A stretch of DNA of 64,000 nt, taken from positions 1-64,000 of the forward strand of contig WGNC01000021.1 in assembly GCA_016124745.1 (NCBI GenBank). The letters run 5' to 3'. Shown here in pieces: positions 33,679 through 39,825 of the stretch (position 1 is its first letter; the number at the start of each line of letters is the position of its first letter). Both the position numbers and the translations under genes were made by a program. Below the pieces are notes generated by a model. It saw only the letters and a list, made by a program, of their open reading frames with translations. It made no database searches and was not told the DNA's origin. Source of the stretch: Thiobacillus sp. (lineage in GTDB: Bacteria; Pseudomonadota; Gammaproteobacteria; Burkholderiales; Thiobacillaceae).

Positions 33679-36063
33679 TCAATACGGCCAGATCCATGAG
33701 TCTGCCTCTGGCAAGTCCACGCCGTTTTCGTAGGCGTAGTTGCGGCAAACGATCTGCATGTCGCGCAGTTCTTCCTTGACGTGGGCGCCGGCCACTTGCA
33801 ACGCGGGAATGCGGTCGATCACATCGATGGCCAAGCTGAAACGATCGATTTCATTCTGAATCGCCAGTTCCAGCGGGGTGTTGATACTGCCCTTCTCCTT
33901 GTAGCCGCGCACGTGCATATTGGGGTGGTTGGCGCGGCGATAGGCCAGACGGTGAATGAGCCAGGGGTAGCCATGGAAGTTGAATATCACCGGCTTGTCC
34001 AAAGTGAACAGGCTGTCGAAATCCCGATCCGAAAGGCCGTGCGGGTGCTCGCTGGATGGTGCCAGCTTATAAAGGTCCACCACGTTGATGAAACGTACCT
34101 TCAGCTCTGGGAAATGCTCGCGCAACAGCACTGTGGCTGCGAGGGCCTCTTTGGTGGGAATGTCGCCGGCGCTGGCCATGACTACGTCGGGTTCCGCACC
34201 TGCGTCGTTGCTCGCCCAGTCCCAGATGCCGATGCCCTTGGTGCAATGCTTGATTGCCGCCTCCATGTCCAGGTACTGCAAGTGCTTCTGCTTGTCGCAA
34301 ACGATCACGTTGATGTAATCAGTGCTTTCGAGACAGTGCGCAGCAGTCACCAGCAGGGTGTTTACGTCCGGCGGAAGATAGATGCGGGTGACAGAGGGGC
34401 TCTTGTTCACCACGACATCGAGGAAGCCTGGATCCTGGTGGGTGAACCCGTTGTGGTCCTGGCGCCAAACTGTCGAGGTGATTAGCAGGTTGAGTGAGGA
34501 CACTGGCGCTCGCCACGGCACTTCCGTCGACATGGCCAGCCACTTGGCATGCTGGTTGAACATGGAATCGATTACGTGAACGAAGGCCTCGTAGGTGGAG
34601 AAGAAACCGTGTCGTCCCGTGAGCAGGTATCCCTCGAGCCATCCTTCCAGAGTGTGCTCGGACAGCATCTCCATGACGCGGCCATCGGGCGACAGTTCGC
34701 TGCCGCCGGCGTCTTCCGGATAGATTTCCGCAAGCCAGGTCTTCTTCGTAACTTCGTAGAGGTTATCCAGCTTGTTGGAAGCGTTCTCGTCCGGCCCGAA
34801 AACGCGGAAGTTGCCCATGTTCTCCGACATCACGTCTCGCAGCAGCTTGCCCAGCGGGCGGGTGTTTTCGGCCGTGATCTTGCCAGGGCCAGGCAACTGG
34901 GCCGCATACTCGCGGAAATCCGGCATGCGCAGTGCGCGCCGCAGCAGTCCACCGTTGGCATGCGGGTTCGCGCTCATGCGCCGAACGCCCTTGGGTGCCA
35001 GGGCCTTCAGTTCCGGGTGCAGGCGTCCGGCCTCATCAAACAGGTTGTGGGGCTGGTAGCTGTGCAACCAGGCCTCGAGTTGCTGAAGATGTGCAGGGTT
35101 ACTGCGAACGTCAGCGATAGGGACCTGGTGCGAACGCCAGAAACCTTCCACCTGTTTGCCATCGACTTCGGTTGGGCCGGTCCATCCTTTCGGTGAGCGC
35201 AGCACAATCATCGGCCAGCGCGGTCGACCAGGAATGCCGCTGTGGCGCGCCTCGTCCTGAATGCGCCGGATTTCAAGCACGCAATGTTCCAGTACTTCGG
35301 CCATCTGCGCGTGCATTGCCATGGGGTCAGAGCCCTCGACAAAATACGGCGTCCAGCCGTAGCCTTTGAACAGACTCTCCAACTCCTCATGCGAAATGCG
35401 CGCCAGGATGGTCGGGTTGTTTATCTTGTAGCCGTTGAGATGAAGGATGGGTAACACCGCACCATCACGGATCGGATTCAGAAACTTGTTGGAATGCCAG
35501 GAAGTAGCCAATGGCGCAGTTTCTGCCTCGCCATCGCCCACCATTACGGTTACCAGAAGATCAGGGTTGTCATAGGCAGCACCGAAGGCATGCGAGACGC
35601 TGTAGCCGAGTTCGCCGCCCTCATGGATCGAGCCGGGGGTTTCCGGCGTGCAATGGCTGCCAATCCCGCCGGGGAAGGAAAATTCCTTGAAGAACTGGCG
35701 CATGCCCTCCTCGTCCTCGCCCTTGTTCGGATACACCTCGCTGTAGAAACCTTCCAGATAGACGGGCGCCAGCACGCCGGGGGCACCATGGCCAGGACCG
35801 GCCAGAAAGATAACGTCCAGGTCGTACTTATTGATCAGACGGTTGAGGTGAACCCAGGCAAAGCTTAAGCCCGGGCTGGAGCCCCAGTGGCCTAGCAGAC
35901 GACTCTTGACGTGCTCAGGCTGCAGCGGTTGGCGAAGCAAGGGGTTGTCGCGCAGGAAAATCATCCCTGCTGCCAGATAATTGCAGGCTCGCCAGTAGGC
36001 GTCGATATTGTCGAGTTCGTCGATGGAAAGTGTGGAACCGGAAAGCGGTATGGGAGCGTTCAT
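33679..36063 (-). CDS. xfp: Xylulose-5-P/fructose-6-P phosphoketolase
   Basis: A 794-residue thiamine-diphosphate enzyme that splits xylulose-5-phosphate or fructose-6-phosphate into acetyl phosphate plus an aldose phosphate. Visible are [19 protein letters not shown], the ThDP/Mg segment [10 protein letters not shown], and SPKGWTGP. The start at 36063 follows AGGAAAT; a longer frame upstream is not family-like. It lies between acetate kinase and glycogen phosphorylase, so its acetyl phosphate can be turned directly into ATP. Confidence 0.95.
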
Positions 36064-36187
36064 GGATTTCCTCGCAAGCAACTGGGGTAGGCTGAACAAA
36101 TCCATTGTTCCCCTGCAAGGTTACAGGGTGTTTGCAGCCCTGCAGATGTCTAGAACCGCAGCGCAACGCGCAACGACGAAGTACCTG

Positions 36188-37378
36188 TCAACTGTTGCCC
36201 GCATGGCCTGTAAGTGCCCAGGTGTGGCGAGCAATCACCAGTTCCTCGTTGGTCGGAATAACCCAGACGGATATCGGGCTCTCCGTCTGGCTAATCCGGG
36301 GACCATGGCGACGGTTGGCTTCTCCATCCAGGCTGAGGCCAAGCCAAGCCAGGCGGCGGCATATGGCGGCGCGGACCGGTGCCGCGTGCTCGCCGATACC
36401 AGCAGTGAAGACCAGGGCGTCGATGCCGTCCAGGGCGACCGCATGACTGGCGATGGCCTGGCTGGTCCGAAACGCGAACAACTCCAGGGCTTGGGTGGCG
36501 TCGGGGTGGTCGCTGGCTAGTAATTCGCGCACGTCCCCGCTGATTCCGGAGACCCCAAGCAGGCCACTACGGTGGTGCAGGAGCTCGGACAGCTGTTCCT
36601 GGCTCATGCCTTTCTCCCGAAGCAGATAGAGCAAAACGCCAGGATCGAGGGCGCCGCAACGGCTGCCCATGGGGATGCCATCGAGCGGGGTAAAACTCAT
36701 GGAAGTTTCTACACTGCGTCGCTGCAACATCGCGCATAGGCTGGCGCCGAAGCCCAGGTGGGCGACGACTATCCGGCCTTCGGAGGCGATGCCTAGATAG
36801 TCAGGCAGCACGCCAGCGATGTACTCGTAAGAAAGGCCATGAAAACCATAACGGCGGATGCCCATTTCAGCCAGATCACGCGGCAGGGCGAAACTGCGCG
36901 CTGGCGGGGATAGGGTATGGTGGAATGCGGTATCGAAGCAAGCGACCTGAGGCAACCCTGGGCGCAGTCTGGCAAGCGCACGGATGGCTCCGAGGTTGTG
37001 TGGCTGGTGCAGCGGGCTCAACGGTATCAGTCGTTCCAATGTCGCCAGAATCTGATTTTCGACTATCACCGGACAGCTGTAATCGGCGCCTCCATGTACC
37101 ACGCGATGGCCGGCTGCGCGCAATTCGAGGCCGGCGTGGCGGGTCTTCAGCCAATCGAGGAGAAGCTGCAAGGCCTGCTCATGATTCGTCGTCGCCACCT
37201 CGCGATCGATCAAACCATCCGTATCGGTGGCGTGCAACACCTGGAAGCGACCACGCCCGCCGACCCCATCGATGCTGCCGCGGTACGCGGGCTGCGTGGT
37301 GGGCGCAGCGCTTGCCCGATAAACGGCAAACTTAAGGCTGGAGGAACCGGCGTTTAGGATAAGGAATGCGACGTCCAT
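36188..37378 (-). CDS. ackA: Acetate kinase
   Basis: A 396-residue kinase of the ASKHA fold that makes ATP and acetate from acetyl phosphate. It shows LNAGSSSLKF at the start, HRVVHGG, CFDTAFHHT, RRYGFHGLSYEY, VAHLGFGASLCA (usually VAHLGNG; here F replaces N) and FTAGIGEHAAPVR. The N-to-F change in that segment is odd and could affect phosphate binding. It is the first gene of the unit with phosphoketolase and glycogen phosphorylase. Confidence 0.93.
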   Translation of the reverse strand: MDVAFLILNAGSSSLKFAVYRASAAPTTQPAYRGSIDGVGGRGRFQVLHATDTDGLIDREVATTNHEQALQLLLDWLKTRHAGLELRAAGHRVVHGGADYSCPVIVENQILATLERLIPLSPLHQPHNLGAIRALARLRPGLPQVACFDTAFHHTLSPPARSFALPRDLAEMGIRRYGFHGLSYEYIAGVLPDYLGIASEGRIVVAHLGFGASLCAMLQRRSVETSMSFTPLDGIPMGSRCGALDPGVLLYLLREKGMSQEQLSELLHHRSGLLGVSGISGDVRELLASDHPDATQALELFAFRTSQAIASHAVALDGIDALVFTAGIGEHAAPVRAAICRRLAWLGLSLDGEANRRHGPRISQTESPISVWVIPTNEELVIARHTWALTGHAGNS

Positions 37379-37680: not shown

Positions 37681-38961
37681 TCAAAAGCCTTCCAGACCGC
37701 CGCGGATATGCAGGTTGCGCTGGGGATAGGGGATGACGATGCCGGTGGCCTTGAAGGCACGCCAGATCGCCAGATTGATGTCGGAACGCACATTCGCCAG
37801 TCCAGCCGCGGGATCCGGAATCCACACCCGCAGCGCCAGCTCGATGCCGTTGTCGCCGAAAGCCATCAGCCGGGTCGCTGGCTCGGGGACCGCACGGACC
37901 CAGGGGATTGCCATGGCGGCCTCCCGCATCAGGGCCAGCGCCTGCTCCGGATTATTGTCGTCACTGATGGACACCGGTATCCGTAGGCGAAATTCGGGTT
38001 CACTGTAGCTCCAGTCGATCACCTCGTTGGTGATCAGGTTCTCGTTGGAAATCAGACGCTCCACCCCGTCGCGGCCCTTCACCACCACGTAGCGGGCGCG
38101 CAGTGCCTGCACCCAGGCGAATTTGTCGCCGGTGGTAATGACATCGCCCGGCCGGATCGAACAGTCGAACAGCACGATGAAACCGCAGATGAGATTGCTG
38201 GCGATGCGTTGCAGACCAAAGCCCAGGCCCAGCGCACCGCCGAACACCGCCAGTGCGGTGAGATCGATGCCCACCGCATTGAGTGCCGGCAGGAAGGCGA
38301 GCACCAGCAGCACGAACTCGCTGAGCTTGACCAGCGCCACCTGCATGCTGGGGCTGACATACTCGGCCTGGCGCAGGCGGTTCTCTATCAGGCGGGTCAG
38401 CCACAGGGCCAGCACCCACAGCAAAGCCACCGCCAGGATCAGTTTGATGATCGCCAGCACGGAAACCCGGGGGCCACCTATCTGCATGGCCATGCTGTCC
38501 AGTCCCTCCAGAACGGCGGACAGCCAGGCGATGAGATGCAGCGCGACGACGATCCAGATGGAGGTGGCAATCAGGTTTTCCCAGGCCTTTACCATCGGGC
38601 CGGGGCGAAAGGTCTTGCGCAGAAAGTAGACCACGATGCCTATGGTGGCCAGGGACAGCAGCGGCGGTACCGCAAGATTCGGAAAATTGACTGCCATGCC
38701 CTGGTGCTGCAGCAATGCACGACCTGTGAGCACGCCCAGTAGCATGCTGATGGGAAGCAGGATGCGTTGCAGCGACTTCAGCGCCAGATCGCGTACCGCG
38801 GATTCCGTGCTGTGCTGGCTATGGCCTGCCAGCCCCTGGCTCAATGCCCGATGCACGAGCAAGGCCCCTGCCGCCGCCAGCACCAGCACCAGCACCAGCA
38901 CCAGCACCAGCACCGCCACCTGCCACCTGCCACCTGCCACCTGCCACCTGCCACCTGCCAC
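37681..38961 (-). CDS. MscS-family mechanosensitive channel, body (leader out of frame)
   Basis: This frame encodes several membrane helices, then the MscS pore helix and vestibule: ALAVFGGALGLGFGLQRI, FIVLFDCSIRPGDVI and the C-terminal beta domain. Such channels open on osmotic downshock and vent solutes. The body has no good start of its own: the first usable codon in this frame is a GTG inside a 7-bp repeat tract. The natural-looking leader (ATG at 39064 or 39052) is in another frame. Removing one 7-bp unit from the tract would fuse leader and body into one 458-residue frame; adding two would also do so. As sequenced the gene is probably OFF or weakly made by internal starts (AGGTGGC units resemble ribosome sites). 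Confidence 0.8.
   Translation of the reverse strand: MAGGRWQVAGGRWQVAVLVLVLVLVLVLAAAGALLVHRALSQGLAGHSQHSTESAVRDLALKSLQRILLPISMLLGVLTGRALLQHQGMAVNFPNLAVPPLLSLATIGIVVYFLRKTFRPGPMVKAWENLIATSIWIVVALHLIAWLSAVLEGLDSMAMQIGGPRVSVLAIIKLILAVALLWVLALWLTRLIENRLRQAEYVSPSMQVALVKLSEFVLLVLAFLPALNAVGIDLTALAVFGGALGLGFGLQRIASNLICGFIVLFDCSIRPGDVITTGDKFAWVQALRARYVVVKGRDGVERLISNENLITNEVIDWSYSEPEFRLRIPVSISDDNNPEQALALMREAAMAIPWVRAVPEPATRLMAFGDNGIELALRVWIPDPAAGLANVRSDINLAIWRAFKATGIVIPYPQRNLHIRGGLEGF
38875..38914 (-). repeat. Hexanucleotide repeat coding the first membrane helix
   Basis: Five perfect caccag units (38881-38910), with a cgccag variant before and a partial unit after. On the minus strand they read as repeated Val-Leu in the channel frame, part of the first hydrophobic helix. 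Changes in copy number keep the frame but change helix length. Confidence 0.95.
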
Positions 38962-38976
38962 CTGCCACCTGCCACC
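38915..38976 (-). repeat. Heptanucleotide repeat tract, likely phase-variation switch
   Basis: Eight full gccacct units (38915-38970) plus six bases of a ninth. Seven is not a multiple of three, so each gain or loss changes the frame between the leader ORF and the channel body. Slipped-strand mispairing at such tracts is the usual basis of contingency loci. Confidence 0.95.
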
Positions 38977-39064
38977 AGAACAGTGAATCGCGGATCTGGG
39001 ACTGCAAGGTCGCCAGCAAGGTCTGGAAATCGGCGGGAAGCGGGACGGACATGGCGGGATTCAT
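38977..39064 (-). CDS. N-terminal leader of the MscS-type channel (separate frame)
   Basis: An open frame from ATG 39064 (or ATG 39052) reads MNPAMSVPLPADFQTLLATL and on to SLFW, a plausible short cytoplasmic or periplasmic N-terminus for an MscS-like protein, and then enters the heptamer tract. In the present state it continues in the wrong frame through the repeats into Gly/Ala-rich nonsense and stops near 38819. It is treated as the detached start of the gene at 37681. Confidence 0.6.
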
Positions 39065-39264
39065 GTGTAAGGGCTTTCAGGAACTTACCGGACGCAGGTC
39101 GAACACAGCAAACGGCGGGGTCGGGATGAGACCGGATTGGCATCGCAGGCGTTACACTGCATCGTGATTCCGTATTCCTGCACGCCGGTGAGGACACGCC
39201 AGCCTGCAGGCGCGCGTGGTACCGATCATCCACCATTAAATGGACGACGAGAGGACGACAGGAA

Positions 39265-39825
39265 ATGCGACTCCCGAAACAGCTGATGGCAGTCGTGCTG
39301 CTTCTCACCCTTTTGTTCGCGGTTTTCGAGCTGACCGGTTTCAGGGCACATTTCAATCTCCAGTTCTTGCAGCAAGCCATCCATGACCACCCGTTCAGCG
39401 GACTGTTGATCTTCGTGCTGGGATTTGCCCTCGGCAACCTGGTTCAGATTCCCGGCTGGGTGTTTCTGGCTGCTGCAGTGCTGGCGCTGGGACAACTTTG
39501 GGGCGGAATTGTTACCTATATCGCCGCCTGCATCTCGTGCATCGTCACCTTCTTCAGCATTCGTTTCGTGGGCGGAGACGCGCTGAGACAACTGGACAGC
39601 AAGCTGGCGGCAAGCCTGCTGAGCCGTCTGGACGCCCATCCTGTAAGCAGCGTCCTGCTGTTGCGAATGCTGTTCCAGACCATTCCCGCCCTCAACTACA
39701 CGCTGGCCCTGAGCGGCATCGGGTTTCGCGATTACCTGCTGGGCACGCTGCTGGGACTCCCCCTCCCCATCGCTCTCTACGTCGTGTTTTTCGATTACCT
39801 GGCGAAAGCCCTGAGAATCGCCTGA
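39265..39825 (+). CDS. DedA/TVP38-family (VTT domain) membrane protein
   Basis: A 186-residue protein with about five membrane segments. The VTT/SNARE-associated signature is present in order: GNLVQIPGWVFLAAAVLALGQLWG, then the amphipathic middle, then LLRMLFQTIPALNYTLALSG (both quoted in part). Bacterial members are thought to move lipids or support membrane homeostasis. Its start is 200 bases from the divergent MscS leader, so the two may share a promoter region. GGAA lies just before the ATG. Confidence 0.8.
   Translation: MRLPKQLMAVVLLLTLLFAVFELTGFRAHFNLQFLQQAIHDHPFSGLLIFVLGFALGNLVQIPGWVFLAAAVLALGQLWGGIVTYIAACISCIVTFFSIRFVGGDALRQLDSKLAASLLSRLDAHPVSSVLLLRMLFQTIPALNYTLALSGIGFRDYLLGTLLGLPLPIALYVVFFDYLAKALRIA

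Follow-up and report, generated by a model that had tools for sequence, protein, structure and literature searches.

A perfect heptamer tract in an MscS/MscK-type channel gene of Thiobacillus that has probably lost, or is losing, its function

SSR contingency loci change frame by slipped-strand mispairing, and the locus described here resembles them in its perfect short tract within an open reading frame, with a unit which is not a multiple of three and which therefore changes the frame. For long simple repeats, the available text of PMC4679880, with reference to Mrazek 2007, gives heptamers as the commonest class in most surveyed genomes. The same portion of that source lists betaproteobacteria among the genomes rich in repeats of 5–11 nt, describes the presence of such repeats as sporadic, with slippage as the proposed cause, and gives multiples of three as the likeliest units of long repeats in coding regions. 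In Salmonella mutL, small tandem-repeat alleles convert by slippage between functional and non-functional forms, and a 6bp-deleted mutL allele is described (available text of PMC2955026). In the literature searched, no paper was found which ties phase variation to a mechanosensitive channel, or slipped-strand phase variation to Thiobacillus.

The window, i.e., the whole analysed stretch of 64,000 nucleotides of contig WGNC01000021.1 of a Thiobacillus sp. assembly, contains on its minus strand, in this order, a leader, TTCT, eight GGTGGCA units, GGTGGC, a single G, six GTGCTG units and the body of a channel gene. The heptamer tract (38915..38976, minus strand; repeat count and frame arithmetic) runs as eight perfect units from 38976 down to 38921 and closes with GGTGGC, in agreement with the first-pass annotation, which had described eight full heptamers plus six bases between a leader and a differently framed body. 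The hexamer tract (38878..38913, minus strand; Tandem Repeats Finder and sequence) encodes Val-Leu repeats in the body frame, as had also been stated; it comprises six full GTGCTG units (38913–38878), where five had been counted before. Tandem Repeats Finder returned 9.6 copies of 7 (score 125) and 6.3 copies of 6 (score 76), and no further array scoring above 55 in the window. In 100 dinucleotide-shuffled versions of the window a string of three heptamer units did not appear once, compared with six overlapping matches in the real sequence; the heptamer tract is not a chance product.

The leader start region (39050..39064, minus strand; alignment) offers two start codons, ATG 39064 and ATG 39052, with weak Shine-Dalgarno pairing upstream of either; ATG 39052 lines up with the start of most aligned relatives. 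Farther upstream (39075–39093, minus strand), 7 of 10 aligned orthologues retain GGTATGTT, which may be a promoter -10 region; the window has GGTAAGTT. The leader coding segment MSVPLPADFQTLLATLQSQIRDSLF (38978..39052, minus strand; alignment) is homologous to the N-terminus of the orthologues, and the Trp-Trp that follows it already overlaps the heptamer tract. As assembled, the leader frame (38819..39064, minus strand; ORF) has an 81-aa product; it reads the hexamer as Gly-Ala repeats and ends with a stop codon at 38819–38821. The channel body is an open frame of 426 aa if the first GTG of the tract that is in frame with it is taken as its start (37681..38961, minus strand; ORF and domain matches).

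The leader ATG, whether 39064 or the conserved 39052, is 1 base off the body frame. The stretch that starts at ATG 39064 and ends with the stop of the body measures 1384 nt; with one heptamer removed it comprises 459 codons with the stop counted (458 aa), and with two heptamers added to the assembled count, 466 codons. The arithmetic proposed earlier, in which one unit lost or two gained would give a continuous frame of 458 codons, was thus confirmed. Leader and body are joined in a single frame at 7 or 10 units, and the frame is broken at 8; in the other two registers, read from the sequence, the leader terminates shortly past the tract. In principle, units gained or lost by slippage could repair the frame or disrupt it. 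Two hallmarks of contingency loci are therefore present, namely a tandem tract with a unit not divisible by three between start codon and body, and unit counts (7 or 10) which reproduce the continuous frame of intact orthologues. A frame broken with respect to orthologues is also a mark of pseudogenes, and here it depends on the assembled unit count.

An orthologue was detected in 17 of 56 genomes of the genus, including that of the window, many of these genomes being incomplete drafts. The threshold was 1e-90, so that short fragments would be missed; orthologues had E values of 3e-225 or better, and paralogue matches started at 6e-116. Leader and body share a single frame in 15 of the other 16 orthologues from the genus. 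Leader and body are one protein in relatives, so that the frame arithmetic is meaningful and the frame logic of the annotation holds. The sole exception of the 16 (L088, the L053 gene of Thiobacillus sp. 65-1059) is short of one base in the accessory helix; compared with a close relative (L055), the missing base falls in a G-rich stretch of this N-terminal helix. In another orthologue (L063/L091, from the Thiobacillus sp. C12 bin), the final about 60 residues are in another frame. A misread frame or a late start in the relatives was rejected, since leader homology is clear across the genus. Among 38 loci of named genomes, a set overlapping the genus orthologues, the N-terminus is present in 37 (L071 is without it) and an in-frame ATG leader in 34; L053 is disrupted, and L061 and L069 are without an ATG before the helix.

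The other 16 orthologues of the genus each contain no more than one heptamer and no more than two hexamers, and thus both repeats have expanded in this lineage; the maximum among the 38 named-genome loci was one heptamer and three hexamers. The leader-helix junction of L043/L087, TTCTGGTGGCAGGTGACGGTGCTGGTGCTGG, consists of nearly two heptamers, then two GTGCTG hexamers. Both tracts could have grown out of an arrangement of this kind, and an intact relative would then show the likely starting point of such a tract. The three-unit heptamer string was found in 1 of 56 genus genomes and is absent from the other 55, i.e., the tract is not kept in related species. A widespread heptamer was rejected as well: among 399 genomes of the order, 3 have a four-unit string, and the contexts of the two besides that of the window were partly inspected. 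These two, from other families of the order, have exactly four units of the same heptamer (L156, at 1501–1528 in genome G266, and L157, also at 1501–1528), and the units in L156 lie, by eye, directly upstream of an apparent start codon.

The body matches the MscS beta-domain (PF00924, E = 3e-8) and the C-terminal domain (PF21082, E = 5e-13), both above cut-offs, and by these two domains it would belong to the MscS superfamily. The NCBIfam models for MscK, MscM and MscS match below their cut-offs, both in the window copy and in all 21 relatives scanned. The nearest solved structures by sequence are MscM and MscK (profile positions about 172–428), and the PDB sequence matches include 7uw5, 11sm and 6rld (MscK, MscM and MscS channels). 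The beta-domain and the C-terminal domain are shared with these channels, and so is, in the orthologues, the glycine-rich motif of the pore helix, whereas the window copy is without two motif residues; compared with MscK, MscM and MscS, the gene and its relatives are a short form of about 435–450 aa. Since the MscS-like core starts at about residue 170–180 in relatives, the repeats encode part of an accessory helix which lies N-terminal to the channel core and is not MscS TM1, where the first-pass annotation had spoken of the first membrane helix. The hydrophobic run at the accessory helix reads VAVLVLVLVLVLVLAAAGALLV in the window body frame and VGVLVLAAAGALLV in a typical relative. The earlier idea that the hexamer tunes helix length was drawn from the in-frame hexamer itself and found no functional support here.

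Comparison with relatives suggests that the body is losing constraint. In 202 columns all 18 relatives compared agree, and the window changes 25 of these; each relative changes 0–8 of 177–185. This count covered 19 of the 27 aligned sequences; L063 was excluded for its frame-disrupted tail, and L046, L050, L051, L054, L056, L057 and L058 were omitted as more distant. When the count was repeated with 25 relatives, i.e., all aligned sequences but L063, the window changed 20 of 163 invariant columns (relatives 0–8). Among the changes at invariant columns are Leu to Pro (twice), Arg to Cys, Tyr to Asp, Arg to Trp and Leu to Arg. The ratio of unique nonsynonymous to synonymous changes at invariant columns was 25:9 in the window and 41:78 in the pooled relatives (Fisher p = 7e-5), and the unique changes of the window were more radical by BLOSUM62 (p = 0.001).

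The pore helix, which is ALGVGLGFGLQ in the E. coli-type MscM and GALGVGLGFGLQ in most relatives, is missing Gly-Val (6 bp) in the window and is thus not intact in its glycine-rich part. The DNA at this place contains the near-repeated GGCGTG/GGCCTG, and a contraction by slippage would fit the loss. In MscS channels a kinked TM3 lines the pore, and the kink region affects inactivation (available text of PMC12334622). The NCBIfam MscK score was 93.1 bits for the window copy and 156.8–187.6 for 21 relatives (20 relatives and L075; seven of the 20 were scored without the leader).

As controls, other genes of the same genome were treated in the same manner. An MscS paralogue changed 6 of 197 invariant columns (relatives 0–7), lpxC 6 of 239, the most among 16 (others 0–3), and ackA 17 of 228 (others 0–25); on the ackA genome set the channel gene changed 31 of 250 (others 0–19). 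From the values for lpxC and ackA, the lineage of the window evolves somewhat fast. Several other results speak against decay. Whole-branch dN/dS of the window copy was 0.28, compared with 0.11–0.36 in 11 relatives tested, so any relaxation would be recent or partial. No stop codons or frameshifts, as expected in a pseudogene, are present in the body over 398 codons; the simulated chance of zero stops was 39% after 40 neutral substitutions and 21% after 66. Also, the gain of hexamers and the loss in the pore helix are multiples of three, as under frame-preserving selection. A divergent acquired allele was rejected, the synonymous length of the branch (0.35) being within the range of the relatives tested (0.16–0.43).

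A live phase-variable channel, ON at 7 or 10 units with leader and body joined and OFF at 8 or 9 with truncated leader peptides, is an unlikely explanation. A unit not divisible by three, eight perfect copies, correct frame arithmetic, a fully open body and the whole-branch dN/dS of 0.28 suit it, and a mostly-OFF phase-variable gene would also be expected to look relaxed. The altered core and the pore-helix deletion argue against it, as do the three-unit string in a single one of the 56 genus genomes and the position of the tract as the sole perfect one of its kind in 224 kb of genome; for the same reasons, the working contingency locus seen in the first-pass annotation could not be upheld. 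In these 224 kb (6.7% of the genome) no other perfect tracts with periods of 4–9 and at least four copies were present, and there were four imperfect arrays (periods 14–75, score 60 or more); the remainder of the genome was scanned for the one heptamer pattern alone. A phasome-like genome was therefore rejected on the evidence of the 224-kb sample. Loss of mismatch repair was rejected as a cause, since profile matches show both mutS and mutL, neither of them with an internal stop. If the tract did vary in a population, an apparently environmental bacterium would have an osmotic channel under contingency control, and of such a case the literature searched contained no report.

The surroundings of the gene vary within the genus. 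In four genomes (G015, G029, G063 and G077) the channel gene is about 200–450 bp from lpxC on the same strand, and in other genus genomes it is farther away or on a separate contig. In the window, the channel gene and lpxC are separated by a gene for a VTT-domain membrane protein (39265–39825, plus strand). On the downstream side of the channel gene, at 33679–37378, a phosphoketolase-like frame (by eye) lies beside an acetate-kinase-like frame; in the 7 genus genomes that have a close match to the latter, this match is on a contig different from that of the channel gene.

Translation could perhaps begin within the tract. A constitutive internal start at GTG 38919 (or 38940, 38961) would give a leaderless channel whatever the unit count, and the sequence contains body-frame GTGs at 38961, 38940 and 38919, and AGGTG, which recurs within the heptamer tract 4 nt ahead of a GTG. 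The best predicted pairing between the 16S tail (entered by hand) and the 20 bases upstream was -6.8 kcal/mol at the GTGs, compared with -0.4 and +0.4 at the leader ATGs and with -6.5, -5.8, -5.3, -1.9 and +0.3 for five other window genes. Such pairing is not required here, since ackA and ftsA are without it, and the RNA of the tract (121 nt) has a strong predicted fold (-47.9 kcal/mol; -70.0 allowing G-quadruplexes) which would hide the sites. With the altered core speaking against a needed product as well, an internal start must be considered quite unlikely. An extension of this idea, in which the heptamer would repeat its own start signal (AGGTG plus GTG, in each of the three frames in turn) and the number of units would set the presence of the leader and not the existence of the channel, and the hexamer would alter the length of the accessory helix, appears highly improbable; if true, it would mean a two-dial, slippage-tuned osmotic channel in a genus of sulfur oxidisers.

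The unit count itself could be an assembly or consensus error, the real gene being in frame with a longer N-terminal region. The genome is a draft of 48 contigs, and tandem tracts are often miscounted in draft genomes. Both tracts together comprise about 100 bases, however, which is under the usual read length, and an erroneous count would leave the core changes and the 6-bp loss outside the tract as they are; this explanation is decidedly improbable.

It is thus fairly probable, as far as can be judged from the comparison of sequences, that the locus is a dispensable MscS/MscK-type channel gene of Thiobacillus whose function has been lost or is being lost. Its dispensability is suggested by the orthologue in 17 of 56 genomes (with drafts among them), by the two frame-disrupted orthologues elsewhere (L053/L088 and L063/L091) and by a total of 8 MscS-like matches in the genome of the window, this gene included. 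The expansion was found in this lineage alone among those examined, in an assembly with a shifted frame and a changed core. For such a gene, slippage in replication would have changed the length of both tracts, perhaps aided by the G-rich strand, for which G-quadruplexes are predicted as RNA. The expansion may have taken place in a gene no longer fully selected, either before inactivation or as its cause. The tract could still move between registers, with no evident benefit; a reversible frame change is mechanically possible and the tract is probably still slippable. It might slip, yet it has probably not been selected as a switch. A tract that looks like textbook phase variation can sit on a gene which, to judge from its relatives, seems to be losing constraint.

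Unlike SSR contingency loci, the locus has a lone tract in the sampled part of the genome, the three-unit string is absent in 55 of 55 other genus genomes, and the gene has an altered core and is known here from a single assembly. With the mutL alleles, as described in the available text of PMC2955026, it shares intragenic tandem units, whose copy number is changed by slippage in mutL and which are seen here in one assembly. Compared with the repeats treated in the available text of PMC4679880, the tract described here differs in being an intragenic heptamer, multiples of three being mainly expected within genes; the heptamer unit, the occurrence in betaproteobacteria, the sporadic distribution and slippage as the proposed source are alike.
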